From NCBI GenBank assembly GCA_023254365.1, contig JALRLQ010000025.1, positions 1 to 19,815 of the forward strand: DNA of 19,815 nucleotides, given 5' to 3'. This document shows positions 4,458 through 19,815 of this stretch, in pieces (positions within the stretch are counted from its first letter, which is position 1; each line of letters begins with the position of its first letter). This DNA is from Candidatus Poseidonia sp. (GTDB lineage Archaea; Thermoplasmatota; Poseidoniia; Poseidoniales; Poseidoniaceae). The translations under genes and the position numbers were made by a program. The notes under the pieces were generated by a model. That model had not been told where the DNA came from. It saw nothing but the letters and a program-made list of their open reading frames with translations, and did no database searches.

Positions 4458-7400
4458 ATGGATGAGCCCGCGCTACGCGTCCTTCGTGCAGGGCTCCCGC
4501 AGCCACGGCGTCGTGGTCGCTTGGCCGTGATGCTCGTGAGCATCATGCTCCTGTCCATGATGCAACCGGTTTCAGGCAACGCTTCTGTGGCTCGAGACGA
4601 CTTCGGTGTGTTGGATGCGTATGCTGCGACGTTGGCCGATCGTGCAGCGGAAGGTGAGTCGCTCATCGCCCTGCAGGGGGCACAATCCTCGTTCGCTCTT
4701 CTTGACGCCTCCAAGCGAGAAGTCCGCCCCGGCGATGCTCTCGCTGACGCTGAGAGTTACCTCGACCAGGTGGAACTGCGTGACACCACGCCGCTTGAAA
4801 TCGACCATCCTCGGCCTTACGAATTCCTCATCGATGTCTCCACCCATCCCGAGGCTTGGCCCTACAACCTGTGGCAGACCCTGTTTTCGGTGGAAAATCT
4901 CGGACTCAACAACTTGTTGGGCGTTGGCATCAACACCTACGCCATCTACGTCAACTTCTCCTCTCGTAACAACGGGCCGTCCTACGAAGCATGGGATTCG
5001 GGTACCTTCACAGGTGAACTGTTGGTGGGAACCAACCTGGTTCTTTTCGAAAACTACGTTGACATCGATGGCGATGGTACCGATGACCTCTCCGTGGCGC
5101 TCACCCTGCGCGGCTTGACCACACAGGGTGAAGGATGGGGCATTGAATTGGGTGGTGGTTTGATTCCCGTGCCGACCGAACTGTGGGTTCGACCCACCTT
5201 CCAGTGGGCGGTCAACGCCTTGAACATCAACGACCCGCTGTGGGATGAACTCGAACATCTCGAAGTGTCGCTGATGAAGGGGTTGGCGTTTGACATCACC
5301 TTGTCCAACTCTGAATCCTACGCTGTGGTGATTGACACCCGGTTCACCCAACCTCCTGCAGACGTGACCTTGGGCGTCGGCATTGAACGCATCTCCTTTG
5401 ACATCAGCGGCACCTTCACCAGCGCTGCGCAGTTGGCCTTTGCCCTGTTGGGCGGCAACGTCAACTCGAGTGATTTGGCGTTGACGGGTGTGACGGCACC
5501 GTATGCCGTGCGTCTTTCCAATCCCAACGCGCCGGGAGGCTCTCAACAAACGGACTGCAGCGAGACGTTCAACTACGACCCGGCGACCGATTCAACGGCC
5601 GAAAGCCGGGAGCACAAGTGCGGCATCGGCATCGGCGTGGGCTACGTTCACTTCGGAGAGGTGCAGCAAGATTCGTCCATTCCCGTGCTTGAAGTGGCCT
5701 ACTTGGATGTCGGTTTCCATCCCGAAGAGGGCAGCACCCTGATTCCAAGCGAAGTTGACCTCACGTTGCGCAACGACAACTACGGCGAGAACACCTTTGA
5801 CACCGTTGAGATCTATTCGGACGTCGGTTCCGACGTGTACATTCACTACTACGAGGACCGCTCGGAGGTTCCCGAAGGCGACAGCCCCTTCGGCAACATC
5901 ACCGATTCGCGCCTGTGGATTCGCGGCCTACCGTCGGGCACGATGCACGATGACGAAATCGCCGCCATTTTCACCACCATCGGCGAGGCGCCGGGCTCAG
6001 CCAACTTACCCGGTGAGATTCCTGACCGGCTTTCGCTGATCATCGCCATCAAGAATTTCTCAGGGGACGGCACTCAGAACGTCAACGACCCGACGCTCCC
6101 GGTGAACCCTGCTCAACCGCCCAACACGCTGTTTTTAATCGCCGGAACGGAATCCATTGACCGGTTTAGCTACGTTTCAACCTTCAAACGAGCCGGCTAC
6201 TCCGGTGATTCTTCATCGATGGTTGTGGAGATGGAGAACCTTCCCCGCGTGATTGTGATTCAGGGAAGTTTCCTCATTTCCTCGACAGGGGTGAGTCGAA
6301 TCAACTACGACAACCCCAATCTCAACACCATTGCCCAACTCTTGGACAACGCGCTGCTGACCATCATCGAGGTGGTGCTTGATATCGGGACCATTCTCAA
6401 CGGCCTGCCCACGGCGGTGGTCGGAACCGCTGGCTCAACGGGCGGGGAAATTGACATTCGGTGTTACAACCAGGTCAAGAAGAGCCTTCCAAACAGCAAC
6501 CGGGAACCGATGGAGATCGAACAACTTCTGTTTGCCCTCGCCAGCAGTCCGCAGCCCTGGTTGCCTGAAATGGATCACATCCTTCTGTCTGAAGACACCA
6601 ACATCGAGGTGGTTGATGGGCGCCTTGGCCCGGTTGATCCTCTGGTGCCGGTCGCCATGAGCATGCGAATCGGCGGCATCACCCATGTCCGCCACGCCTT
6701 CGACCCCATCAACGAAATTCGAGACATGCAGCTCGAAGGCACGCCCAGCGGCTCCTTGCTCATTGGCCACATCAAGCACGATGACGGAGATTTGGACTCG
6801 GCGGTCAAGCAATCCACCACCGTCTCCAACCGACCGGGCGACTTCAACATCTTGCAGGAAGCCGAATCGCTGCAGTATGAAGCCAGCGAACCCATCGGCA
6901 CCATCACCTACGGTGGCCAGTCCGGTGACCAGCGCAACGCGATTCGTCTCACCGGCCTTCCCGAAGCCTTCACGCTGGTGCTTGGCGACACCGTTGGCTA
7001 CATCGCCGATGCGCCCATGGACAGTTTGCAAGTCCAAATGACCAACGCCACCACGCCGTTGACGATGGACGGTGACCACGTTCGCTTCTGGGTGGACGAA
7101 GACACGGCCCAAGCCAGTCTGAGCGTACAGCTGTCCGACATCACCTCCATTCAACGGCTCAGCCCCCTGGTGCCCGGAGCATCAGGGCCTGAGGGCAACT
7201 CGCAAGTGGCCCTCGTTCGCTCCACCTCTTCTCCGTTCAGCGTCTCGTTCGAAGACGAATCAACCTACGACGACCCCTTCAAGGGCTTGAACGGCAAGGT
7301 GTACTTTGACCCGCTTCCCGCCAACATTTCGCTCACCCTTCCTTCTGAAGTGGATTCGGATGGGTTGGAACTTCCAACATTTGGCGAGGAAGAGGGCATT

Positions 7401-9122
7401 GAAGCCCTGTCGTTCTTCCTCGGTGACATCGTTGACTTCGGGCGCGTGGTCAACGATTTCGTTCACAGCCTGACCGTTGACGTTGGCGGTGAAATGGGTG
7501 GTAACGAGGATTTGAACCTCGGATTGGACTTGTTTACGGGAGAGGCGTTCAACATGACCGTTGACCTGAGGAAGGGGTCCAACCTCAACGCTGAGCCAGC
7601 GTGGATGCACGGCATCGGTATGGAGGCGGTTGAGCAAACCCGCTTTGCCACCAACCTTTCGCGAATGCCCACGTTTACGCTGACCAGTCGGGAGATCATG
7701 GCCACGCTGTTGGCTGACGGTCAAATCGATGAGAGCGAACGGCCCCAAGCCCTTTCGGTGCTGAACGCCGCCAACATCACCGCCGCAGAACCGCTTGTGT
7801 TGGCGATGGAGGACGGACGGGTGTTTGCGGAGGAAATAGCAGGCGTGAACCTGACCTTGCTCGAAGACCAGGGCATCACGCTCCAGGACCGTCGCTCCTG
7901 GCACCTGCGAGCGTGGCTTCCATCGTTGCCCGCAGGGACGATTGAACTGGTCTACGATTTCCGGATGCTCGGCGGTGTGCCAACCTACGAAATTGACCTC
8001 AGCATGTCGCAGTGGCAACCCATGTACCCTCAACTCACCATCGTTGCCAACGGGTTGGAAGGTCAAGACATCGAACTCTTCATCGATGGTTTGGATACCA
8101 CCATGCCCCGCAACGTCGAAATCAACGCCTTGTTCTCCACGCAAGAGAACCTCACCGTCCCTCGGGTTTCGGTTGACATGCACTACGACGCCGGCGTTCG
8201 TCTCAAATCCGCTCATGCGATTCTCATCGACCACCAAGCCTTGACCCGGGTCGAAGCCCTTGTCGTGGGCATCCCTCAATCGACGGACGTGTCCGCCGTT
8301 ATCGGTGACGTGCTGATCCTTGATTTGGTGGTCCCCGAAGAGCACCGCATCAACGGGCATTCTGCCGATTCGCTGATGCTGCAGCAACTTCGCTACATCG
8401 ACGGTTTCTGGTGGCCCTCCACCGCCTTCATGCGCGACCTGCCCGGTGAAATGCACCTGGCCACCGAACCCGACACGCGGTTCGACATCCGAAAACAAAC
8501 CGCCTTCCAAGGCATGCGAACGCTGGATTATTCCTCCAACACCGACGACATGGACCTGTACTTGGAGGCCAGCGGTCGCGCCATCGATTCAAAGGGCGAC
8601 GTGCTGATGCTCGCTGAGGACCTTCCGACCCGCTTCGTGCTCGAACTGACCGACGATTACGGGATGCGGGTGGATTCGTCAGGCGTTGGCGTGAAACGGG
8701 TGTATGTCAGGCAAACCGATGTTCCCGCTGCCCCCGGTGTGACCATCGAACGGGTGGAGGTGGTCGGCCAGAACCTCAAGGGTGCCACCATTCACATTTA
8801 TTCTGGACCGGGCCAATACCCGCTCATCGTGATCGACGATATCACCGACGGGCGATTGGTGGCGAGCGCTGAGGTGTACATCGAGCCGGGGTATGAATTC
8901 CCTCTCTTTGGTGATTTCAAGTTTGAAGGACGAGGTGTGTTACTGGATGCTCAGTTCACGGGCATCATCCCAACCGCCTCTTCGTTGGGGGTTAACGGCA
9001 TCGTCACCGACCTCTCGCTGGTCGGTTCGCTGACCGGTGAATTTGTGGAAACACGGCACATCATGGTGGTCGACCCCATCAGTTCTGCCATTGCCAGTGG
9101 GTTGGCGTTCATATTCGGGTGA
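4458..9122 (+). CDS. Giant secreted beta-rich protein of unknown function
   Basis: A 1554-residue protein I do not recognise. ATG 4458 is chosen because it gives a clean signal peptide: RRRGR, then a core LAVMLVSIMLLSMMQ ending in PVSG. The frame is open from 4344, but that start would add 38 non-signal residues overlapping the upstream gene. GGAGG at 4436-4440 is 17 nt away, longer than ideal. The mature protein is rich in alternating hydrophobic residues and Asp/Asn/Gly turns, suggesting long beta sheets. A calcium-type loop DIDGDGTDD lies at 202-210. Only three cysteines are present (C367, C388, C669); the first two may form a disulfide. There is no typical C-terminal anchor; it ends with the short hydrophobic ISSAIASGLAFIFG. 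The 194-aa membrane protein begins 4 nt downstream and may be its partner. A surface polymer, adhesin or lipid-binding sheet are all possible; none is demonstrated. Confidence 0.75.
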   Translation: MDEPALRVLRAGLPQPRRRGRLAVMLVSIMLLSMMQPVSGNASVARDDFGVLDAYAATLADRAAEGESLIALQGAQSSFALLDASKREVRPGDALADAESYLDQVELRDTTPLEIDHPRPYEFLIDVSTHPEAWPYNLWQTLFSVENLGLNNLLGVGINTYAIYVNFSSRNNGPSYEAWDSGTFTGELLVGTNLVLFENYVDIDGDGTDDLSVALTLRGLTTQGEGWGIELGGGLIPVPTELWVRPTFQWAVNALNINDPLWDELEHLEVSLMKGLAFDITLSNSESYAVVIDTRFTQPPADVTLGVGIERISFDISGTFTSAAQLAFALLGGNVNSSDLALTGVTAPYAVRLSNPNAPGGSQQTDCSETFNYDPATDSTAESREHKCGIGIGVGYVHFGEVQQDSSIPVLEVAYLDVGFHPEEGSTLIPSEVDLTLRNDNYGENTFDTVEIYSDVGSDVYIHYYEDRSEVPEGDSPFGNITDSRLWIRGLPSGTMHDDEIAAIFTTIGEAPGSANLPGEIPDRLSLIIAIKNFSGDGTQNVNDPTLPVNPAQPPNTLFLIAGTESIDRFSYVSTFKRAGYSGDSSSMVVEMENLPRVIVIQGSFLISSTGVSRINYDNPNLNTIAQLLDNALLTIIEVVLDIGTILNGLPTAVVGTAGSTGGEIDIRCYNQVKKSLPNSNREPMEIEQLLFALASSPQPWLPEMDHILLSEDTNIEVVDGRLGPVDPLVPVAMSMRIGGITHVRHAFDPINEIRDMQLEGTPSGSLLIGHIKHDDGDLDSAVKQSTTVSNRPGDFNILQEAESLQYEASEPIGTITYGGQSGDQRNAIRLTGLPEAFTLVLGDTVGYIADAPMDSLQVQMTNATTPLTMDGDHVRFWVDEDTAQASLSVQLSDITSIQRLSPLVPGASGPEGNSQVALVRSTSSPFSVSFEDESTYDDPFKGLNGKVYFDPLPANISLTLPSEVDSDGLELPTFGEEEGIEALSFFLGDIVDFGRVVNDFVHSLTVDVGGEMGGNEDLNLGLDLFTGEAFNMTVDLRKGSNLNAEPAWMHGIGMEAVEQTRFATNLSRMPTFTLTSREIMATLLADGQIDESERPQALSVLNAANITAAEPLVLAMEDGRVFAEEIAGVNLTLLEDQGITLQDRRSWHLRAWLPSLPAGTIELVYDFRMLGGVPTYEIDLSMSQWQPMYPQLTIVANGLEGQDIELFIDGLDTTMPRNVEINALFSTQENLTVPRVSVDMHYDAGVRLKSAHAILIDHQALTRVEALVVGIPQSTDVSAVIGDVLILDLVVPEEHRINGHSADSLMLQQLRYIDGFWWPSTAFMRDLPGEMHLATEPDTRFDIRKQTAFQGMRTLDYSSNTDDMDLYLEASGRAIDSKGDVLMLAEDLPTRFVLELTDDYGMRVDSSGVGVKRVYVRQTDVPAAPGVTIERVEVVGQNLKGATIHIYSGPGQYPLIVIDDITDGRLVASAEVYIEPGYEFPLFGDFKFEGRGVLLDAQFTGIIPTASSLGVNGIVTDLSLVGSLTGEFVETRHIMVVDPISSAIASGLAFIFG

Positions 9123-9126
9123 GACC

Positions 9127-9711
9127 ATGGCTGGACCGTCTGCAGAAGCCTTGCGCCAAGGGGGAAGCCCTCCCGAGGGCGACGACCTCGAAGCATGGGA
9201 GGCTGCTCAGGAAGCAGCGAAACTCTTGACCGCCCTTTCCCGTGAAGTCACGCCAACGCGCGTGGCGATGGCAGGGGCCGTGCTGTTCTTGCTGATCACG
9301 ATGACACTGAGCGGCTGGTACTGGTTGCTTCCTCGAGATTCCGTTACGGTGGAGACGCACTACATGCAGCGGGGCGGTCATCTGGTGATGACGGAACTTC
9401 ACAACGACGGCAGCCGGTCCATCACCGATGTTGTCCTCGACATTGAATTCCACACCTTGGAAGGCGAACTCATCGAAACGATGTCCCTTGAGGTCAACGA
9501 AATGAACGCCCACTCCTCCATCTCTGGAGATGAGTTGGAAATGATGGTCATCGGCTACACCATATGGGGTGAATACACCCTCACCATCAACATCGAGTAC
9601 AGGGATTACACCGGCCAGTTGCGCCAAGCCTCTTGGACGCACGACGTCGGCGAGTGGTCGCAAGAAATCTTCACCGACAAAGCAGACCGGCACGTGTGGC
9701 CGATCAATTGA
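9127..9711 (+). CDS. Signal-anchored membrane protein of unknown function
   Basis: A 194-residue protein. Residues 1-45 form a charged N terminus (acidic EGDDLEAWEAAQEAAKLL, then basic SREVTPTR). Residues 46-68 are one membrane span. The remaining 126 residues look like an extracellular beta-sandwich with phrases such as 'VMTELHNDGSRSITDVVLDI', common in Ig-like domains of surface proteins. The positive residues before the span predict N-in/C-out topology, opposite to the neighbouring C-terminally anchored proteins. ATG 9127 follows the giant gene's stop by 4 nt with a weak GGTGA-type site, so the two are probably coupled. The frame stays open upstream to 9037, but those residues are read out of frame from the giant gene's end and are not signal-like. 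No family recognised; it may tether the unanchored giant protein. Confidence 0.7.
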   Translation: MAGPSAEALRQGGSPPEGDDLEAWEAAQEAAKLLTALSREVTPTRVAMAGAVLFLLITMTLSGWYWLLPRDSVTVETHYMQRGGHLVMTELHNDGSRSITDVVLDIEFHTLEGELIETMSLEVNEMNAHSSISGDELEMMVIGYTIWGEYTLTINIEYRDYTGQLRQASWTHDVGEWSQEIFTDKADRHVWPIN

Positions 9712-9767: not shown

Positions 9768-12700
9768 ATGGCAGGGGCAGTGCAACGAACCTCTGCCGTT
9801 GTCTTCGTGGTACTGCTCGTCCTTTCAACGAGCAGTTCGCTGTTCCACGACGATGGTGAACGGGGCACAGAACCGCTATCGCTTTCACCAGAATGGGTTC
9901 AATTTGACGTCAAAGAAGGCGTTTATTTTGACGCCGAAGGGGTGCTCGACGACCGCCTTGTGAACGAACACAGGGACGCGCTTGCCATTGGCCCGTTCGG
10001 CACCTTTGACAGCAACGGCTTGCAGTTGGCCCGTCCCGTTCCCTCATCGCTGCTCGAACCCCGTCTCGACCTGTTGTTGGTGCTCGTATCCAACGACCTT
10101 CGCCTTCAGGATGTTCGCCAAGAATTGGCAACCGTTGACGGACTGGCGGTTCGCGAGTACATCGCTCCCTCCGGCCTGCTGATTCAGGGCACGCCGCTGG
10201 CCCTTCAACAAGCGGAAGCCCACCCTGCCCTGCTGGCAAGCCACGCCGTTCCCATCGGCATGTTGGTGGACGGCCCGTTGCTCGATATGGTGCTCTTGAC
10301 CGAGGGCGAATCGGTGTTGCAAGAGATGTTGCTTCGCATCGATGGCTGGCGCGACGACCTCGGCCCCATCGAAACCGTCGATTTGGTCGACGAGAACGAT
10401 GGCCGCCTCACCCAATCCTTGGGCGACGTGGCCCGGCAAGCCATGGTGGAGTCCCGAGCCTGGGACGATGGCCGTTACGAAGGAACGCTGCGCAACGTAC
10501 CCTTGGAACAGGTCTTGATGCAACCTTCGCTGATGCAGTTGCGAGCCGATCCTGCCTTTGCGGCGTTCAACGACCAGTCCCGAAGCCACATGCAAACCAA
10601 CACCATGGCCACCTACTTCACCACCGACTTGGACGGTTCAGGTCAAATTGTGGCGGTGGCGGATGCCGGTCTTGACGAAGACCACGGCGATTTTGGCACC
10701 CGAGTCGTCGGTTCCTACGATGTCATCGGTGACGGCAGCACCGCCGACAAGCACTCTGGCCACGGCACCCACGTCTCCTGCACGGTGCTTGGTGACGGTT
10801 TCCGCGGCGGCTACGGTGGCGTGGCTCAGGCGGCTGAATTGTATTTCCAAGCCATGGAAAACGACAACACCGGCAACTTCCAGTCGCCCTCCCTCAACAA
10901 TTTGCTCAACACGGCGTACAACGCAGGTGCACGTACCCACACCAACTCGTGGGGCTCGTCCGCTGCCAGCCAGCAGTCAAAGTACAACTCCGAAACCGAG
11001 GACGTTGACTCCCGAGCCAACCACTACGACCGCTACTACAACGGTGTTGAGGGGTTGACCATTCTCTTCGCCGCAGGCAACGACGGACCGGGAAGCAGCA
11101 CCGTCTCACCCCCAGCCACGGCCAAGAACGTCATCGCCGTTGGCAACCACAAGAACCGGTACAGCGGCTCGCCGGACGTGATGATGGGCGGCTCGTCAAG
11201 AGGGCCCACCGAAGACGGCCGCATCAAACCCGATTTGGTGGCACCTGGCGGATACGTGCGCTCCTGTCGTGCCCAAGAGGCGACGGACACCAGCGGCTCA
11301 ACCTGGTCCAACACCTACTATCTGGAATACACGGGCACGTCGATGGCCACGCCCAACGCCGCCGGCGCTGCTGTGATGATTCGGGAGTACCTGATTGAAA
11401 TCGCACAGCGTCCTTCTCCCCAAGGTGCCTTGGTCAAGGCGCTCATGGTGCTGGGTGCTCAAGACATGGGCAGCAGGGACATCCCCAACAACGACGAGGG
11501 ATGGGGCAGGGTCAATTTGCGCAACACCCTTGCCCCTTCCAGCGGGCAGGGCATCTGGGTCGACGACCGTTCCGTGATGTCGGGCACCGGCAACAGCAAG
11601 TCCTATTCCTTCAACGTCACACAAGCCTCGGGGCTGTTCAAGGTGGTGCTGACGTGGTCCGACGAGCGGGGTTCCCGCTTTTCGACCGCTCAACTGGTCA
11701 ACGACTTGGACTTGGAAGTCACGGCACCGGATGGAACGGTGTACCTTGGCAACGATTTCGCCAACGGCCGTTCGGCCACAGGCGGCAGTCGGGACAATGT
11801 CAACAACCTCGAGGTGGTGTTGATCGACGCGGCTGCCATGGGAACCTGGACGGTCAAGGTCAAGGATGCCCAGCACAGCGGGGCGAAAACCCAGCCCTAT
11901 GCCATCGCCGTGTTGGGCCATGGCGTCAACGACCTTCGCCCGGACCCCAAGGTGGTGCCCGAAGACTTTGCCATGGACGTTGGCATTCCACAAGTGGACG
12001 ACCCGGTGCAGTTGACGACCTCGTTCTTCAATTTTGGAAACGTCAAGGCCGACATGTTCCCCATTGCCTTCGAAGTGGACGGCACCGAAATCTCCCGACG
12101 CTCCATCGAGCTCGGCGCAGGTTCGAGCAAAGTGCTGATGTGGTCGTGGACACCGCAATCCTCGGGGTCAACCACCCTTTCTTTCATCATCGACCCCGAT
12201 GACACGATGGAGGAAATTCGTGAAGACAACAATCGCCTGGACGTTCAAGTCAACGTGACGGCGCCGGGTGTGAAATTGGAAACGGCTACGCCGACCAAAA
12301 CTCTGCAATCAAGCGAAATCACCACGACATCGTGGAATGTTTCCCTCACAAACACGGCGCTGATTCCCACCAACGCCTCCATGCAAACCGGCCAAGTCAC
12401 CCACTTGCAATCCGGCCAAACCATGCCGTGGTACATCGGAAGCACCGACTCCAATTTCACCATGGACGGACAAGCCTCCGAGTACATCACCGTCACCTTG
12501 GTTCATCCCTCTCCACCCAACCCCGGCACCTACCGAATCGATTTGCTTGGCCTTGATGTGGACAACGGCGTCAGTTATCCGTTAAATCTGGACCTCGAAG
12601 TTCCCGATTTACCCGAAGCGGCGTTGGAATTTGATTACGAAATCGTCCCCGTCCATCCATCCGAACCGACCAACATCACGGTGCGATTTTACAACAACGG

Positions 12701-14336
12701 GAACGCCCCCATCGGCTACGACCTGTTCTTGGAGGCGCCTGCCGGGTGGCAAGCCGGTTTCACCAATTTGGGTAGCGAAGCTGGGGCAACGTCCGGTTCA
12801 ACCGGCTTGATCAACAGCGAAGCCTACCGTGCAGTGGGCCTCACCTTTACGCCTCCACAAGTGATGACTGCAGCCGGGGCCGAACGGATTGTGAAACTCA
12901 CCGCCGTCAGCCAAACCGAACAGCAAGAGTTGACGCTGTTCGAGATTCCTATTCAAGTCCTTACCGTGCGAGAAATGTTTGTCAACATCGAGTCCTCCAT
13001 CGGTGTTCAACGCCCCGATTCGACCCTGACCTTGCGCTATTCCCTTGAGCACAAAGGCAACGTCGACATGCGTCTTACGCCCTCGTTTTCGCTCCCCACC
13101 GGCTGGTCGGTCACGTCCGCCCTCACCCCCATCGATTTGCCTTGGGCCACCAGCAAAAATTTGCTGTTCACGCTCGAGGCAGGCAGCAACGCTCGTTCCG
13201 GTGACATAGTGCTCAACCTCGACAACGGTTCGACCCGCTTCACCTGGGAAGGGGTGTTGAACGTCGAGGTGTTGCCCGAACCTTCGCTGACCTTTGTCGG
13301 GTTGGAACTGGCAGACGGCACCTCGTATGGCTCGCCTCAAGGCGCAGGCTCGCATCCATCGGGCGAATCCATGACCTTCACGTGGTTGCTCAGCAACGGT
13401 GCCGAGACCGAATGGTCGCCAAGCGCAAGCCTCCAGACAGACTCCGGCTTGTTTGGCGACTGCACGCCGGTTCAACCCGTCGGCCAAAACGATGTATCAC
13501 CCGTGGTCTGCACGGTGCTGATCGCCGCCAACATGGCGCCCATGTCCGAACCATCCTTCACCCTGGTGCTCAGCGATGGCGGCGTGGAGTTGTCAACCAC
13601 GGTCGGCCTCTTGGTGGCCGCCAACGAACAAGTCCGTTGGGATGTAGGGGCTGTTCCCTCGTTCATCACCGGGGAAGAGCGCTCCATCACGGTTCAAATC
13701 GTCAACACCGGAAACGTACCCCTGCAGCGACAATTGGTGATCGACACCCCGGACACCTGGACGGTGGTTGTTGACGGGTCGGACATCGTGGCGCTCGATG
13801 ACGGTCAGGACGCCTTCGTTCGGCTTCTTGTCCGAGCCGATTCGCCCGGAAGCGCAACGCTTGGTTTGGGGTTGGCTGAGAGCACCGCCACCGATGCCAC
13901 GTATTCCATCACCGTCACCGCCACTGGCGAACCGGTAGGCACCAGCAGCAGCGCAGGATTGAGCACCACCGTTGCGCTGTCCATGTTCGGGGCCATCTTG
14001 CTGATGGCCTTCCTCGCTCTGGGGATACAAGCGATGCGCTCCCGTGAGGAAGGTGCAACCGTGGCCAAGCCTGCCGCCCCCTTCCAGCCCCTCGCTGTTC
14101 AACCCGCCCAAGTCCCCGCACCGGTGGCTCAAGCCACCCCTGCACCTGTGCAACCGGCGTCAGCCAACCCACCACCGATGTGCTGGACGTGCCGTGCCCC
14201 CATTACCACCGCCATGATCGGATGCCCCTCATGTGGCGCCCGATACCACGGGGACGGATCAACTGGATGCAACGCGAACGAGCTCGAGGTGTGTGTGAAT
14301 TGCAGTGCTCCTGCGGACCGCTTCGTTCAGGCTTGA
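9768..14336 (+). CDS. Subtilisin-family (KP-43-like) surface protease with CARDB/Ig domains, membrane anchor and RING-like zinc tail
   Basis: A 1522-residue S8 serine endopeptidase. Residues 1-24 are a signal peptide; about 30-285 look like a propeptide. The catalytic triad is D299 (VADAGLD), H332 (SGHGTHV) and S525 (GTSMATP); the oxyanion Asn is N438 (FAAGNDG). HTNSWG, SSRGPTEDGRIKPD and the beta-sandwich at about 590-715 (VLTWSDE, LVNDLDLEV) match KP-43-type subtilases. A CARDB domain (about 720-830: 'NFGN..', 'IREDNN') is followed by about five Ig/NEW3-like domains (834-1390). A membrane span lies near 1401-1424, then basic MRSREE, a Pro/Ala-rich linker and a cytosolic zinc tail: C1472-x2-C1475-x10-C1486-x2-C1489-x4-H1494-x6-C1501-x7-C1509-x2-C1512, resembling prokaryotic RING fingers. 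It likely degrades external proteins while tethered to the cell. All catalytic residues are present. Confidence 0.9.
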   Translation: MAGAVQRTSAVVFVVLLVLSTSSSLFHDDGERGTEPLSLSPEWVQFDVKEGVYFDAEGVLDDRLVNEHRDALAIGPFGTFDSNGLQLARPVPSSLLEPRLDLLLVLVSNDLRLQDVRQELATVDGLAVREYIAPSGLLIQGTPLALQQAEAHPALLASHAVPIGMLVDGPLLDMVLLTEGESVLQEMLLRIDGWRDDLGPIETVDLVDENDGRLTQSLGDVARQAMVESRAWDDGRYEGTLRNVPLEQVLMQPSLMQLRADPAFAAFNDQSRSHMQTNTMATYFTTDLDGSGQIVAVADAGLDEDHGDFGTRVVGSYDVIGDGSTADKHSGHGTHVSCTVLGDGFRGGYGGVAQAAELYFQAMENDNTGNFQSPSLNNLLNTAYNAGARTHTNSWGSSAASQQSKYNSETEDVDSRANHYDRYYNGVEGLTILFAAGNDGPGSSTVSPPATAKNVIAVGNHKNRYSGSPDVMMGGSSRGPTEDGRIKPDLVAPGGYVRSCRAQEATDTSGSTWSNTYYLEYTGTSMATPNAAGAAVMIREYLIEIAQRPSPQGALVKALMVLGAQDMGSRDIPNNDEGWGRVNLRNTLAPSSGQGIWVDDRSVMSGTGNSKSYSFNVTQASGLFKVVLTWSDERGSRFSTAQLVNDLDLEVTAPDGTVYLGNDFANGRSATGGSRDNVNNLEVVLIDAAAMGTWTVKVKDAQHSGAKTQPYAIAVLGHGVNDLRPDPKVVPEDFAMDVGIPQVDDPVQLTTSFFNFGNVKADMFPIAFEVDGTEISRRSIELGAGSSKVLMWSWTPQSSGSTTLSFIIDPDDTMEEIREDNNRLDVQVNVTAPGVKLETATPTKTLQSSEITTTSWNVSLTNTALIPTNASMQTGQVTHLQSGQTMPWYIGSTDSNFTMDGQASEYITVTLVHPSPPNPGTYRIDLLGLDVDNGVSYPLNLDLEVPDLPEAALEFDYEIVPVHPSEPTNITVRFYNNGNAPIGYDLFLEAPAGWQAGFTNLGSEAGATSGSTGLINSEAYRAVGLTFTPPQVMTAAGAERIVKLTAVSQTEQQELTLFEIPIQVLTVREMFVNIESSIGVQRPDSTLTLRYSLEHKGNVDMRLTPSFSLPTGWSVTSALTPIDLPWATSKNLLFTLEAGSNARSGDIVLNLDNGSTRFTWEGVLNVEVLPEPSLTFVGLELADGTSYGSPQGAGSHPSGESMTFTWLLSNGAETEWSPSASLQTDSGLFGDCTPVQPVGQNDVSPVVCTVLIAANMAPMSEPSFTLVLSDGGVELSTTVGLLVAANEQVRWDVGAVPSFITGEERSITVQIVNTGNVPLQRQLVIDTPDTWTVVVDGSDIVALDDGQDAFVRLLVRADSPGSATLGLGLAESTATDATYSITVTATGEPVGTSSSAGLSTTVALSMFGAILLMAFLALGIQAMRSREEGATVAKPAAPFQPLAVQPAQVPAPVAQATPAPVQPASANPPPMCWTCRAPITTAMIGCPSCGARYHGDGSTGCNANELEVCVNCSAPADRFVQA

Positions 14337-14400: not shown

Positions 14401-17295
14401 ATGGAGCATGGTGCGACCGCGAACGGTGCTCAGCGAAAGGCGCTGCTGTTGGTGGCGTTGATGTGCACGGCCCTGCTCCCGCTTGTCGCTCCCGTCGCTT
14501 CCGCCGACGGTGGCCGAGCCATCTCGGTCCAACTCACTGCCATCCCAACAGCCCTTGAGGTCAATCCTGGAGAAGGTGGAGAATACACCATCCGTCTACG
14601 CAACAACGGCGACAACCCAATCACCGTCCAGTTGGCCACCGCCGAAGAGGCCGGTGGCGACTGCGGGGGGTACGCTTCAACCATCACGCAATTCACCGGC
14701 CCCATCGACGCCGGTCAAGTTGAGGAAACCACGTTGAACGTGACCTTGACCCAAACCGCAGAAGGCAGTTGCAAAACCACGGTGACGGCCAACATCAACG
14801 AACAGGTCACGCCACCCGATGTCGCCGACCCACCCACGCAGGAAACCGTCGAAGTGACCACCACCGCTGGAGACGGCTCCGGCAGCGCTCTGTTTGGCGT
14901 GGACCTCATCATTGCAGAAAGTCAGCGAGACAAGAACTGGCAGGGCCAGAGCGAGGTGGACTACGTGGTCACGGTGGAAAACACCGGACGCAGTAACGAA
15001 ACCATCAACCTCGCCGTGACGGAAGGCACCGGCCCCGGCTGCGGCTCGGCTTCCGAATTGACGGTAACCCTGAGCGAAACCACCGTCCAAGTTGACGAGG
15101 AAGAATCCGAAACCGTCACCGTCACGGTGGAAGTCCCTGACGGGCAATCCGCCGACAAATACTGTTGGGAAATCGAAGGCGTCGTGGCCAACGACCCTGC
15201 TCAAGAAGCCAAAGACGTCGAAGATTTCAGTTTGACCGTTCCCGAACTCAAAGAATGCACGGTCGCCCTGAGCAAGACCTCGGTCAGCGTGAACCCAGGG
15301 GCGACGGTCACCATCACCGCCACCTACGCCAACACTGGCAACGCCAACTGGATCGTCCATGCGGCCGGTGCAGGTCCAAAAGCCTCGCAATGGGTCAGCG
15401 TTGACGGTGCCTCCTCGGGCAACCTTCCCTACGACGACGGGAACGGTGAGCGCGAGTTTGATTTCCTCATCAGCCCTGATGATTCGGTCACCGCTGGTTC
15501 GGAAACCGTCGTGACCATCGTCGGCAAAGAGAGCGCAACAGGGCCCATTAAGGAAGACTGCCAAGCCGACCTACGCATCATCGTCGGCCAGTCTCGAGGG
15601 GCCAGCATTTCGGTGGCGACCTCGCTGTTGTCCAACATCGAACCGGGCAGCAACAAATCCACCACATTGACCGTCACCAACCAAGGCAACGGCCAAGACA
15701 ACCTGCGCATCGCTTCCTCCATTGCGCCCACCGGATGGGCCGTGCAGTTGGAACAGACCGCCGTTTCGGTCGGTTCAAGGCACGGCAACGAGAAGTCGGT
15801 CACCGTCGATTTGACGGTGCGCGTCCCAACCAATGCACTGGCCACTGAAGAGGTCGAGTTGACCTTCAGCGTCCTGCCTTCAAGCGGCGGTGCGGCCTAC
15901 GACTCCGTGGTGCTGAAGGTGACGGTAGCGGCCGTTCACGGTTTTGAAATCGACACGCCCGCCACCGACCAAACGGGACGTTCTGGCACCGAAGTTCGCT
16001 TCCCCATCGATTTGGAAAACCAAGGCAACGTCCGAGACACCATCGGCGTGTCCGTCGTTTCGCAGACCGCCAGCCCTGCGTGGGGGACCTCGTTTGAAAC
16101 CGTCGACGGCATGCCGTTCACGGAAATCGACATCGAACCGCAAACCACCACACGCGTCTACTTGGTGGTCAGCATCGATGGCGAGGAAGAACTCGAAAAC
16201 TCCCGCATCACGGTTCGCATCCGCAACAAGGACGACCCCAACAGCCAGGACCGTGACAACGACGGTATTCCTGACAACCAGCGTCAAGGCGAGTTCCTCG
16301 CCATCCTTTCCGACCGCGAATTCTCCATGGACCTTCGTCTCGAGAACACCGATACGGCCACATCGGCCTCGGTCGTTCTTCCACCGAGCGGTGAGAAAAC
16401 CATCGGCATGTGGGTTCGAAACACGGGCGACGGCAACGACGATGCGGTGTTCACCCTCGGTGGTTTGGAAGGCATCGCCACCCGTTCCATGACCGCCTAC
16501 GGTCTTCCGGTAACGGGCGAGTTGGCCGTGCCCAAAGGGTACGGGATTTGGGACATCACCAACGCCACCTACGTCATGGAATCCAGCGGCCAACCCTACT
16601 TGCTGAGCGATCAAGACGCGGCTGAAATGAAGATGCTCGATCTCGGTTTGACCTTTGAGGACTACCGAGCCCAGCCCTACGAGGTCTACATCGAACTCAC
16701 GCTTCGGGTCAACCCAGGGGCGCAAACCGGGCAGGGAGGCGTCCTCGAAATTCTCGTCACCAGCGTTTCCAACGCCGCCGACCGAAGCGGGTTGGTGACG
16801 GTGTCGCTTGAAGTCAGCATCATCCACGAAATCACCTTCGTTGAGGAAGGCGTTCGGCAAGAGCTTGACATCGTTTACGGGCAAAAGGCTGCGGTGAAGG
16901 AAATCTCCATCCTTAACACGGGCAACGTGCGGACCGAAATTCGGGTCTTTGCGTCCGAGAACCTTCGTGGCTGGTCGGTGTTGCTCGACAGCGACAACCT
17001 CGATTGTCAGACCGAAAACAGCGACTTGGTGTGCATGGTGGACGAAGGCGAGCGCCTCTACGTCAACGTCACCATCCGAGCACCCTACGGGGCTGAAATG
17101 GAAGATCTGTACAAATTCACGGTATCAGCTGAGCCCACCGAGACGGGTGTGCTCGACCGTCAGAACATCGAATTTGCCGCTCAAGGCATGCCCGCAGAAG
17201 GCGTGCTCGGCCTTTCTTCAACCACGCTGGCGCAAGCCGGTGGGGCTCTCCTCGTTGTGCTGCTGCTTCTGGTGGCCATCGGCCGTCGCAAGTGA
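14401..17295 (+). CDS. C-terminally anchored surface protein of tandem CARDB/NEW3-like domains
   Basis: A 964-residue protein. Residues 1-35 are a signal peptide (QRK, then ALLLVALMCTALLPLVAPVA). The body is a string of about six to seven Ig-like domains, each marked by an 'N.G(N/D)' strand turn: RNNGDNP (68), ENTGRSN (193), ANTGNANW (310), NQGNGQDN (427), NQGNVRDT (540), NTGDGNDD (674), NTGNVRTE (839). These resemble the NEW3/CARDB domains of archaeal surface proteins (COG1470-type). A calcium-binding DRDNDGIPDNQ loop of thrombospondin type 3 style lies at 617-627. The C terminus is one membrane span (947-960) followed directly by GRRK, so there is no cytosolic domain. Likely a structural, adhesive or S-layer-like protein. 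ATG 14401 is the first possible start after an in-frame TGA at 14389; GGAGA at 14380-14384 is 16 nt away, unusually far. It may share targets with the subtilase upstream. Confidence 0.8.
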   Translation: MEHGATANGAQRKALLLVALMCTALLPLVAPVASADGGRAISVQLTAIPTALEVNPGEGGEYTIRLRNNGDNPITVQLATAEEAGGDCGGYASTITQFTGPIDAGQVEETTLNVTLTQTAEGSCKTTVTANINEQVTPPDVADPPTQETVEVTTTAGDGSGSALFGVDLIIAESQRDKNWQGQSEVDYVVTVENTGRSNETINLAVTEGTGPGCGSASELTVTLSETTVQVDEEESETVTVTVEVPDGQSADKYCWEIEGVVANDPAQEAKDVEDFSLTVPELKECTVALSKTSVSVNPGATVTITATYANTGNANWIVHAAGAGPKASQWVSVDGASSGNLPYDDGNGEREFDFLISPDDSVTAGSETVVTIVGKESATGPIKEDCQADLRIIVGQSRGASISVATSLLSNIEPGSNKSTTLTVTNQGNGQDNLRIASSIAPTGWAVQLEQTAVSVGSRHGNEKSVTVDLTVRVPTNALATEEVELTFSVLPSSGGAAYDSVVLKVTVAAVHGFEIDTPATDQTGRSGTEVRFPIDLENQGNVRDTIGVSVVSQTASPAWGTSFETVDGMPFTEIDIEPQTTTRVYLVVSIDGEEELENSRITVRIRNKDDPNSQDRDNDGIPDNQRQGEFLAILSDREFSMDLRLENTDTATSASVVLPPSGEKTIGMWVRNTGDGNDDAVFTLGGLEGIATRSMTAYGLPVTGELAVPKGYGIWDITNATYVMESSGQPYLLSDQDAAEMKMLDLGLTFEDYRAQPYEVYIELTLRVNPGAQTGQGGVLEILVTSVSNAADRSGLVTVSLEVSIIHEITFVEEGVRQELDIVYGQKAAVKEISILNTGNVRTEIRVFASENLRGWSVLLDSDNLDCQTENSDLVCMVDEGERLYVNVTIRAPYGAEMEDLYKFTVSAEPTETGVLDRQNIEFAAQGMPAEGVLGLSSTTLAQAGGALLVVLLLLVAIGRRK

Positions 17296-17422: not shown

Positions 17423-17446
17423 GCAGAGAGCGTATGCGTTCTCTGT
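17423..17446 (+). promoter_or_regulatory. 24-nt quasi-palindrome just before nuoA
   Basis: Perfect arms CAGAGA (17424-17429) and TCTCTG (17440-17445) flank a self-complementary core. All 12 base-pair positions pair if three G-U pairs are allowed. As RNA it makes a stable hairpin with loop TATG, 10 nt before ATG 17457; as DNA it has the form of an operator. A TATA-like GCTTATTG (17394-17401) would put the transcription start at about 17425, so this element would lie at the very 5' end of the nuo mRNA. Confidence 0.5.
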
Positions 17447-17456
17447 GGGTGTATCC

Positions 17457-17936
17457 ATGTCAGGACTCGAATCGGTGCCTAGTGCCTATCTCTCCATTGG
17501 TTTCTTGACCATCGTCGGCATCATCATGCCCCTGACGAACTTCATTATCACCTGGTTGGTTCGACCGAAGGTCGATCCTGCTCGCCCCCACATCACCCGC
17601 TCTTACCTTTTGGAGGGCTACGAGCGAGACCACAGCCTCTACCCTCGCCGATTGACCACCTTTGAGTGCGGCAGCGAGCCCGTTGGCGAGGCCATGATTC
17701 AATTCCACTTCCAGTACTACTGGTACGCCATCATCTTCCTTGTGTTTGACGTGGCGTTCATGTTCCTCGTCTTGGGTGGCATGGTCGCTTCCGACGCCAC
17801 CGCCGAGGGCGTGGTTGACCGAGAAGCCGCCGTGGCCAAGGCCACCGATGCTTTGGTGACGCTGGGCATCTTCTTCGCCACCATGTCGCTGGGCGTGTGG
17901 TACGTGTTCCGTAAGCGAGGTCGCATTTACATCTGA
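17457..17936 (+). CDS. nuoA: Complex I subunit NuoA (ND3-like)
   Basis: A 159-residue membrane subunit of respiratory complex I, part of the quinone-site/proton-channel junction. Three spans are visible (about 11-35, 88-110, 132-151). The family signature F69-E-C71-G-S-E-P-V-G-E-A-M...FHFQYYWYAIIFLVFD is present, with C71 matching the ND3 loop cysteine. Two oddities are seen. The first loop (36-68) is longer than in E. coli. The conserved Glu of the FD(V/L)E motif in the second core span is Ala (F97-D-V-A100). ATG 17457 follows GGGTG at a 5-nt spacing; an in-frame GTG at 17445 is the alternative start, adding four residues. First gene of a tight nuoABCD operon. Confidence 0.93.
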   Translation: MSGLESVPSAYLSIGFLTIVGIIMPLTNFIITWLVRPKVDPARPHITRSYLLEGYERDHSLYPRRLTTFECGSEPVGEAMIQFHFQYYWYAIIFLVFDVAFMFLVLGGMVASDATAEGVVDREAAVAKATDALVTLGIFFATMSLGVWYVFRKRGRIYI

Positions 17937-17940
17937 GGTG
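17934..17940 (+). promoter_or_regulatory. Stop codon fused to Shine-Dalgarno (TGAGGTG) between nuoA and nuoB
   Basis: The TGA ending nuoA runs into GGTG, so GAGGTG (17935-17940) sits 7 nt before the nuoB ATG at 17948. Same coupling device as at 619-625 and 19195-19201. Confidence 0.6.
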
Positions 17941-17947
17941 ATGAACC

Positions 17948-18541
17948 ATGGCAGGACAAGACGAAAACTACGCTGCATTCAACAGTCGCGCCCTCGTTGA
18001 GATGGTGGGCGATGTCACGGACGAAGCTCTCAAGGCCACCCGAATCAAGCAGTTCCTGAGCGTTCTCGCTGGTCGCTACTTCAACTGGGCCGGCCGCAAG
18101 TCGTTGTTCACACTCCACTTGGGCATCAAGTGCTGCGCCATTGAGATGGCCGCTGCTGCTACGCCTCGTTTCGACGGCGACCGTTTCGGTGTGCTGTTCC
18201 GCTCTTCGCCTCGTCAGTCCGACGTGCTGCTCGTCAACGGTCCCATCAGCAAGAAGTTCGCCGACAAGATCGTCCGTCTCTGGGAGCAAATGCCCGAGCC
18301 CAAGTACTGCATCGCCATGGGCGAGTGCGCTATCTCGGGCGGGCCGTACTTCCAATCCTACAACATCCTCGAAGGCGTGGACACCGTCATTCCTGTGGAC
18401 GTCTACATCCCCGGATGCCCACCTCGCCCTGAAGCCCTCATCGACGGCTTTGGACTGCTTCGCGAGAAGATCATTCGTATCGGTGCTGCCCCAAGCAGCG
18501 GCCGCAAGGGCGACAAGCCGATCATCGTCGGGGAGGACTGA
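17948..18541 (+). CDS. nuoB: Complex I subunit NuoB (PSST), N2 cluster protein
   Basis: A 197-residue peripheral-arm subunit holding the terminal [4Fe-4S] cluster N2, which hands electrons to quinone. The four ligands are in place: the adjacent pair C62-C63 in GIKCCAIEM, C127 in MGECAISGG, and C157 in VYIPGCPPRPEAL. The core also has SPRQSDVLLVNGPISKK and QMPEPKY, as in the family. Length is normal for short archaeal and bacterial forms. It has a good Shine-Dalgarno and is 11 nt after nuoA. Nothing suggests decay; function is assured if the complex assembles. Confidence 0.96.
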   Translation: MAGQDENYAAFNSRALVEMVGDVTDEALKATRIKQFLSVLAGRYFNWAGRKSLFTLHLGIKCCAIEMAAAATPRFDGDRFGVLFRSSPRQSDVLLVNGPISKKFADKIVRLWEQMPEPKYCIAMGECAISGGPYFQSYNILEGVDTVIPVDVYIPGCPPRPEALIDGFGLLREKIIRIGAAPSSGRKGDKPIIVGED

Positions 18542-18543
18542 CC

Positions 18544-19197
18544 ATGGGCATGCGCGTCACCAACGAGCAAAGCGACATGGCTGCGGAGGCTGCGGTTCAA
18601 CAAGTGGCGGACCGCTTCTCCGGCTCCGACGTGGCCGCAACGGTGGAGCACCACGCCAACGCCCACAAGATGGCGTTTGTTCGCATGACTGTCCCGCCCC
18701 AGCATTGGACGGCCGTCGCAAAGTTTCTCCGATTCGACGTCGGCGTGAACTACTGCTCGATGGTGACCGGCACCCACTTCCCCGAAGGCGGAGCAGACCG
18801 AGGTTGGGAAGTGGCCTATCACTTGATGCGCCAACCCGTGACCGACCAGGCCCCGCACACCAACACCGTCCACGTTGCAGAAACCCTTCGAGGCGATGAT
18901 ATCCCGTTGGAGTTTGAGGTGCTGATCACCCTTCCACAAACCGAATCCCCCAGCGTCCCCAGCGTGCAGAGCGTGTGGGTTGGTGCCGATTGGAACGAGA
19001 AAGAAACCTGGGACCTTGTTGGCATCCAGTTTGAGGGCCACGAAAACATGCACCGGGTGCTCAACCCCCACGACAGTCCCGAAGGTTTCCACCCGCTTCA
19101 GAAGCAACACAAGATTCGCTACCACGACTTCAACGAAATGTACGACGACGCTCAGGGCTTCGGTCGAAAACCAACCGACGAGGGTCGCGTAAAGTGA
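18544..19197 (+). CDS. nuoC: Complex I subunit NuoC (30 kDa)
   Basis: A 217-residue soluble subunit that packs against NuoD at the base of the peripheral arm. The C-terminal half carries the family signature: V144-W-V-G-A-D-W-N-E-K-E-T-W-D-L-V-G-I161, then F163-E-G-H-E-N-M-H-R-V-L-N173 and EGFHPLQK. This matches the usual 'E.(R/K)E..DL.GI.F.GHP.L.RIL' with Glu in place of the Pro after GH. The N-terminal half (MAFVRMTVPPQHW...VNYCSMVTGTHFP) is the alpha/beta part. It begins 2 nt after the nuoB stop; GGAGG overlapping the end of nuoB serves as its ribosome site. It is a separate gene, not the NuoCD fusion of E. coli. Confidence 0.94.
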   Translation: MGMRVTNEQSDMAAEAAVQQVADRFSGSDVAATVEHHANAHKMAFVRMTVPPQHWTAVAKFLRFDVGVNYCSMVTGTHFPEGGADRGWEVAYHLMRQPVTDQAPHTNTVHVAETLRGDDIPLEFEVLITLPQTESPSVPSVQSVWVGADWNEKETWDLVGIQFEGHENMHRVLNPHDSPEGFHPLQKQHKIRYHDFNEMYDDAQGFGRKPTDEGRVK

Positions 19198-19201
19198 GGT
19201 G
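19195..19201 (+). promoter_or_regulatory. Stop codon fused to Shine-Dalgarno (TGAGGTG) between nuoC and nuoD
   Basis: The TGA ending nuoC is followed by GGTGAT, creating GAGGTGAT with 3 nt before the nuoD ATG at 19207. This confirms the nuoD start, which has no other ATG nearby in a suitable position. Confidence 0.6.
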
Positions 19202-19206
19202 ATACG

Positions 19207-19815
19207 ATGGCACAAATGTGGATTACCATGGGACCCCAGCACCCGATGACGCACGGTCTGTGGACGCTTCGTGTGAAGGTTGACGGTGAAACCGTTGTCG
19301 ATACCGAGGCCGAACTCGGCTACATTCATCGCGGTGTCGAGAAGATTGCCGAAGCACGTGACTTCACGCAAATCACCCCGTATTGTGACCGGCTCTGCTA
19401 CGTGAGCGCCATGACGTGGGCCAATTCCTACATCTATGCCGCTGAGGATTTGCTCGAAGTTGAGGTGCCCGAGCGTGCAGAATACATTCGTCTCATCGCT
19501 GCAGAATGTCAACGCCTTGCCTCCCACTTGATGTGGTTGGGCGCTTACGGGCCCGATATTGGCAGTTTGACCCTGATGACCTGGTGCATGCGAGACCGCG
19601 AGATGTTCCTCGACCTCCTTCAGGAATTGGGCGGCTCTCGAATGCACTACAACTACCCCCGTGTTGGCGGTGTGAAGCGCGACATTCCTGTCGGGTTTGC
19701 CGACCGCCTCATCGCGAAAGTCAAGTTGTTTGAGCACCGCATTGACGAGTACGAGATGATGCTTGACGAATCGACCATCTGGCTCGTTCGTCTGCAGGGC
19801 GTCGGCTACGCCAAG
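19207..19815 (+). CDS. nuoD: Complex I subunit NuoD (49 kDa), N-terminal 203 residues
   Basis: Open to the end of the window, so the 3' half (usual length about 370-410) is missing. NuoD forms most of the quinone pocket with NuoB. Family motifs: G9-P-Q-H-P-M-T-H16-G, GYIHRGVEKIAE (38-49), ITPYCDRLCYVSAM (56-69), ASHLMWLG (105-112), YGPDIGS (114-120, D117), SRMHYNYPRVGGV (144-156). By alignment to bovine NDUFS2 from memory, H16 equals quinone-ligand His59, Y65 equals Tyr108 and D117 equals Asp160. The residue before Y65 is Cys (C64) where the family has Asp (DRLDY). Last gene of the visible operon; nuoH and nuoI are expected downstream but not seen. Confidence 0.95.
   Translation, partial: MAQMWITMGPQHPMTHGLWTLRVKVDGETVVDTEAELGYIHRGVEKIAEARDFTQITPYCDRLCYVSAMTWANSYIYAAEDLLEVEVPERAEYIRLIAAECQRLASHLMWLGAYGPDIGSLTLMTWCMRDREMFLDLLQELGGSRMHYNYPRVGGVKRDIPVGFADRLIAKVKLFEHRIDEYEMMLDESTIWLVRLQGVGYAK

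Follow-up and report, generated by a model that had tools for sequence, protein, structure and literature searches.

A surface subtilase of Marine Group II archaea with a predicted RING-like zinc module at its cytosolic end

The contig JALRLQ010000025.1 of Candidatus Poseidonia sp., analysed over its whole stretch of 19,815 nucleotides (called the window here), carries at 9768..14336 a gene for a subtilisin-like protease (subtilase) of 1522 amino acids (aa) that ends in a membrane span, a linker and a zinc module. All features described below lie on the plus strand. We consider it probable that this protein is a membrane-anchored surface protease of the Marine Group II (MGII) archaea, the cytosolic treble clef of which, similar to Prok-RING_1, would serve as a docking module and not as a ubiquitin ligase. 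A docking or peptide-binding module is the best explanation of the tail because the latter is conserved and cytosolic, occurs in a single copy per genome and can be exchanged for different short tails.

The open frame extends from Met 9768 to the stop at 14336, and a near-identical database protein matches residues 1390-1522 at 98%. The N-terminal hydrophobic segment (9768..9845) is a probable signal peptide, judging from a hydropathy peak of 2.01 and not from a dedicated predictor. The Peptidase S8 catalytic domain (10635..11507; Pfam PF00082, 144.7 bits, cut-off 21.8) is followed by two Ig-like domains, CARDB (11997..12239; PF07705, 45.4 bits, cut-off 22.7) and NEW3/NPCBM-associated (13668..13838; PF10633, 31.6 bits, cut-off 24.4). 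Strict patterns of the S8 catalytic motifs were found for D in 70, H in 75, N in 75 and S in 71 of 76 sequences, counts in which the misses were not audited one by one. The solved chains closest to the S8 region are SubHal (5fax_A) and protease 1wmd_A, whose S8 domain together with the following domain was matched over residues 286-715; unlike the window subtilase, these chains of 433-434 residues have neither a span nor a zinc tail.

As the original prediction had it, hydropathy and composition reveal one strong C-terminal span (about residues 1402-1420, 13971..14027; Kyte-Doolittle 2.48) and then a Pro/Ala-rich linker (14031..14174; Pro, Ala, Val and Gln), the length of which ranges from 18 to 93 residues across the family. 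Positive charges stand directly after the span, before the linker and the zinc module (14175..14333). The charge bias places this tail, linker included, in the cytosol, on the side proposed earlier: in all 76 sequences compared (75 loci and the window), Lys and Arg are more numerous after the span than before it, with means of 3.1 per 15 residues on the tail side and 0.16 on the outer side.

The eight putative zinc ligands (C1472, C1475, C1486, C1489, H1494, C1501, C1509 and C1512) are exact in position when counted from Met 9768 and are spaced C-x2-C-x10-C-x2-C-x4-H-x6-C-x7-C-x2-C; only four other cysteines occur in residues 1-1471. A scan of genome contigs left 80 of 226 loci as relatives, five of which run off the contig end and 75 of which are complete at the C-terminus. 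Each of these 75 orthologues retains the full set of eight ligands, in three spacing classes: H-x6-C-x7-C, H-x5-C-x5-C and a compact H-x2-C-x4-C (54, 9 and 10, respectively, of the 73 sequences in alignment A1). The ligands are also kept in 12 of 12 divergent orthologues, themselves picked by a match to the tail profile, in which the linker varies in length and composition. The conserved residues other than ligands include a CGxRYH core and a Phe near the end. Pooled dN/dS (the ratio of nonsynonymous to synonymous substitution rates) was 0.11 for the tail, 0.37 for the fast-evolving linker, 0.25 for the span and 0.022 for the protease domain, over 75 close, mutually non-independent pairs from 61 full-length sequences; the mean identity of the linker was 0.21 in 600 sampled pairs of 61 sequences. 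Since 75 of 75 orthologues keep the ligands and the dN/dS of the tail lies below that of the linker, the eight-ligand tail is not a chance arrangement. The zinc tail is under purifying selection. Close homologues without the cysteines, which were feared at the outset, were not met in this family, with the qualification that the module is absent from the orthologues of nine genomes of the class that stand further away (identity of about 40 to 50%), less surely so in two of them.

A database search with the tail region, with 435 candidates, retrieved 21 proteins that match at E up to 0.01. Of these, 19 have an S8 domain; the remaining two, of 970 and 999 aa, have CARDB and NEW3 only. The 80 loci bear Poseidonia, Poseidoniales or Euryarchaeota-type labels in 79 cases; the remaining contig (L068), labelled as a Rhodobiaceae bacterium, holds the gene row of MGII and is likely a binning error.

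The tail is predicted to be a cross-braced, RING-like binuclear treble clef with C4HC3 ligand order, on the basis of AlphaFold2 models, profile matches and the conserved ligands; zinc itself is predicted. The models are confident (pLDDT 95.3 for the window tail and 90.9 for a compact tail) and superpose on RING, U-box and ZZ domains, which agrees with the treble clef anticipated earlier. The best alignments with RING and U-box structures run end to end at 1.3 to 1.9 Å, those with 3lrq (titled U-box domain of a human E3) giving 1.6 Å over 47 residues and 1.3 Å over 46 residues for the two tail types, respectively. Foldseek alone was weak, with a best E of 0.026 and a rubredoxin as first match at 3.9 Å for the window tail, and a best E of 0.37, to rubrerythrin, for the compact tail. 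A sequence search of the PDB with the tail profile likewise gave only weak matches, the best of which (2nb9, E 2.4e-4) covers part of the domain.

The kinship with prokaryotic RING families that had been suggested is borne out by profile comparison but not at the level of formal membership, as the window tail scores 16.8 bits with Prok-RING_1 (PF14446), under the cut-off of 29.1. An hhalign comparison of the subtilase tail with nine Prok-RING_1-type tails from other Thermoplasmatota gave 97.2%, whereas a zinc-ribbon control gave 70.9% over about half of the domain. The only one of these nine that was scanned, L219, scores 57.7 bits with PF14446, and the C4HC3 order is common to all nine and to the subtilase tails. 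At E up to 0.1, Prok-RING_1 matches 16 of 25 diverse tails, the lowest E being 2.5e-4, and its matches exceed the cut-off in 0 of 60 genomes of the class. The window tail is thus, by sequence, a divergent relative of Prok-RING_1 and not a formal member. Direct membership in Prok-RING_1, DZR, PHD or IBR was rejected, the window tail being below the cut-off of each Pfam family; PHD (PF00628) reached 14.0 bits against a cut-off of 24, and C1 (PF00130, cut-off 26.5) was not listed for it. Weak PHD and C1 matches were seen in 12 and 8, respectively, of the 25 diverse tails. The first match of four further tails was Prok-RING_1 in two and DZR in two, always below the cut-off, and NCBIfam gave no match to the tail.

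The Prok-RING_1-type domains of other Thermoplasmatota (L219-L226) share with the subtilase tail the C4HC3 order, the Cys-x2-Cys pairs, a CxxCGAxYH core and the C-terminal position. They differ in the spacing from His to Cys (two residues, against six in the window tail) and in the carrier, which is a secreted subtilase with a span here and, in L219-L226, a protein without a span by hydropathy. In these other Thermoplasmatota, up to three matches per genome were seen, in long proteins (about 1000-1600 aa) ending in such domains. Two further proteins (L227 and L228, 975-978 aa, the former with Big_13) combine a span with a C4HC3 tail, so the architecture recurs; the L227 tail scanned alone passes Pfam C1 (27.4 against 26.5 bits) and fails Prok-RING_1. 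A different MGII surface protein with CARDB (L176 990-5051, 1354 aa) also has a span and its own C4HC3 tail, which scores 22.9 bits with Prok-RING_1, under the cut-off. A protein of 172 aa from G009 (L172) has a compact C4HC3 C-terminal domain and, by hydropathy, no span.

The search for the same tail across the class, proposed with the original prediction, found a match to the tail profile (E up to 1e-3) in 85 of 118 genomes, exactly one in each and for the most part within open frames 1400 to 1680 aa long; this is a count of tail-profile matches, the S8 domain of the carriers not having been checked one by one. A broader profile, applied to 389 genomes of the phylum, had matches at E up to 1e-4 in 122 of them. 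Strong matches (E below 1e-14, one per genome) account for 108 of these; most lie within open frames close to 1500 aa, which were not looked at one by one. The 14 weak ones are in other proteins.

Among the class genomes without the tail we examined 20 listed ones and 12 of 13 others, whose handles were inferred from gaps in the numbering. A match at the level of an orthologue was found in only one of the 20 (G042, residues 9-1382, 41%) and in nine of the 12; a paralogue of the subtilase, of about 1600 aa, occurs in G024 and also in G042. In four orthologues (G042, G074, G088 and G117) an acidic stretch and a PGWLWD...PDP motif take the place of the zinc module. Those of G079 and G085 have a short tail with a GWS core (GWSxxQ), helical-looking by eye, and that of G109 has another helical-looking tail with a GYPEExA core (these three are loci L231-L233). 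No tail module was recognisable in the orthologues of G059 and G047, two cases less sure than the other seven: G059 has a second copy cut at the contig end, and the G047 sequence was joined from two contigs. The orthologue of G111 is cut at the contig end and its tail is unreadable. The RING-like tail is hence present in 85 of 94 class genomes with a readable C-terminus, and the different short tails of seven genomes are consistent with exchangeable docking modules.

Neither the WLWD nor the GWS tails have a Pfam match. A threshold of E 0.01 gave WLWD-type matches in 72 of 98 class genomes, and these often lie within open frames 1400-1500 aa long. The PGWLWD...PDP motif also ends other MGII surface proteins (about 1420-1490 aa), after a span in those read; the loci concerned are L178, L202, L203, L230, L204, L205 and L206, four of which are the subtilase orthologues. 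One WLWD-tailed protein other than a subtilase was scanned and has Big_7 and beta-helix domains.

A quick tree of 39 protease sequences, built with the tail columns removed and midpoint-rooted without an outgroup, places RING-tailed sequences on both sides of the root, and four tail changes suffice to explain it. The four WLWD sequences group together in a single clade (99), and the two with a GWS core in another (100), next to a sequence with the RING-like tail; G109 has a long branch close to the root. The simplest reading of these sequences is that the RING-like tail would be ancestral, with two or three later replacements and at least one loss, G109 with its long branch being the less certain case.

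The subtilase gene belongs to a conserved gene row for surface proteins, next to the genes of complex I, on one strand and in constant order across the 80 loci. The row in the window comprises a PKD protein (1775..4375; Pfam PKD_4, 40.4 bits, cut-off 27); a large secreted protein of about 1550 aa (4458..9122, Met 4458 inferred), for which neither Pfam nor NCBIfam gave a match at E up to 1; a small single-span membrane protein with an N-terminal cytosolic helix (9127..9711, Met 9127 inferred); the subtilase; and an Ig-like surface protein (choice-of-anchor T; 14401..17295; NCBIfam NF041740, 101.6 bits, cut-off 70). The last of these has a C-terminal span and ends right after it, without a cytosolic domain. 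The genes at 17445..19815 we take to be nuoA, nuoB, nuoC and the start of nuoD, from resemblance and not from a hidden Markov model match. The large secreted and the small membrane protein are present in 71 of 80 loci each, the Ig-like protein in 74, and the four nuo genes in 65, 65, 63 and 61; these counts include many loci truncated at the end of a contig or of the locus, and the single absences behind them were not audited. The large secreted protein, the small membrane protein and the nuo genes also stand beside the subtilase, in the same order, in nine of nine divergent regions, including that of G042 with its different tail; the order was found again in G074 and G088, which brings to three the differently tailed orthologues confirmed in the row.

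The PKD protein (tail at 4247-4372) likewise ends in a span followed by an Ala/Pro linker and a zinc ribbon of the C4 type; this tail is conserved in divergent genomes, in the seven sequences of alignment A5. The row therefore has two proteins with tails of a zinc-binding type. The small membrane protein was considered as a partner of the subtilase tail and found no support, its helix being alike in 23 RING-tailed and three WLWD-tailed loci.

Two other identities of the module itself have to be weighed. A double zinc ribbon (DZR-type, PF12773) in place of a cross-braced RING-like domain is suggested by the Pfam scans, in which the window tail has DZR as its best single-sequence match, at 22.2 bits, and 24 of 25 tails match it. 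Yet it is under the 27.3-bit cut-off in every row with bits printed. The best RING and U-box structures align with the models over their full length, but the coverage of the compact model by rubredoxins is limited to residues 12-47; no DZR structure was aligned directly, so this comparison is an indirect one. The His at the fifth ligand and the profile match to the Prok-RING_1-type tails further argue against a double ribbon, which we consider decidedly unlikely. In RING-type ubiquitin ligases (E3), contact with the ubiquitin-conjugating enzyme (E2) involves a hydrophobic residue, a Pro and a basic linchpin. The fold and the C4HC3 order, given as the RING arrangement of prokaryotes in a section of the review PMC11354881, would suit an E3 conjugating a ubiquitin-like protein to membrane or nascent proteins. 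However, Ile, Leu or Met precedes the second Cys in only six of 73 sequences, Pro follows the seventh ligand in none of the 73, and Lys or Arg follows the eighth in three; on these residues, typical of ubiquitin-ligase RINGs, the identity as an E3 was rejected, and we regard it as very improbable. The E2 family PF00179 was found in 0 of 116 class genomes, a result that counts little since the control genomes gave none either.

As to the role, the original prediction offered trans-envelope signalling or recruitment of a cytosolic partner, of which we favour recruitment. Signalling, in which a substrate or cleavage outside alters the inner domain or an inner partner gates the protease, would fit the fixed place beside complex I genes (61 to 65 of 80 loci) and the several different short tails of the orthologues; against it, a single span with so variable a linker would probably pass a conformational change poorly, and no effector gene was recognised in the row. 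It seems to us quite unlikely. A mere cytosolic stop or stabilising cap, anchoring the protein and shielding its C-terminus from degradation, would account for orthologues with an unrelated module or none and for the bare end of the neighbouring Ig-like protein, but the conserved CGxRYH core and terminal Phe would seem to exceed the needs of a plain cap, and we deem it unlikely. The swap or loss of the tail in nine genomes, two of them less surely, speaks for a docking module that can be exchanged, and against an enzyme. In the docking arrangement, an extracellular S8 protease would be anchored by one C-terminal span with its zinc module inside the cell, where the module would bind a peptide or protein partner in the cytosol. 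Docking would hold the protease, and perhaps other proteins of the row, at one place of the membrane, and the docked proteins might report their state inward. The gene row may thereby encode one assembly.

The domain class and its pairing with membrane peptidases are of already known kinds. Prokaryotic treble clefs of the B-box, AN1 and LIM groups were reportedly linked to membrane-associated peptidases by Burroughs and colleagues in 2011. They resemble the present tail in that a RING-like treble clef works together with a membrane peptidase or another membrane protein, and differ in belonging to other treble-clef groups, the carrier here being a large extracellular subtilase. Eukaryotic membrane RING proteins have an outside or lumenal domain, a span and a cytosolic RING, and act as ubiquitin ligases. 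The subtilase has this same layout, whereas the E2-binding residues are missing from its tail. A passage on B-box domains in PMC4506424 also speaks of the link between treble clefs and membrane peptidases. In correction of the original prediction, a membrane peptidase paired with a RING-like treble clef is not without precedent in prokaryotes; the extracellular subtilase as the carrier looks new. Open-access listings gave no literature on a secreted subtilase carrier, its wide conservation in MGII or the exchange of its tails, which is no proof of absence.

Abstracts in the literature describe the MGII archaea as abundant degraders of protein that have not been cultured, and an excerpt of PMC9723583 places a subtilase, not specified further, among their highly transcribed protease genes. 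A conserved protein with a protease outside and a RING-like module inside offers a concrete handle on how MGII cells organise the digestion of proteins at their surface, and orthologous proteases with different inner tails are a natural experiment on RING folds used without ubiquitin. It is tempting, though speculative and rather doubtful at present, to picture a surface digestion complex, encoded beside complex I, with an inner plug-in socket, filled by a RING-like, WLWD or helical tail, in which the RING fold would be used free of ubiquitin. If this were true, the socket would couple digestion outside the cell to the machinery inside.
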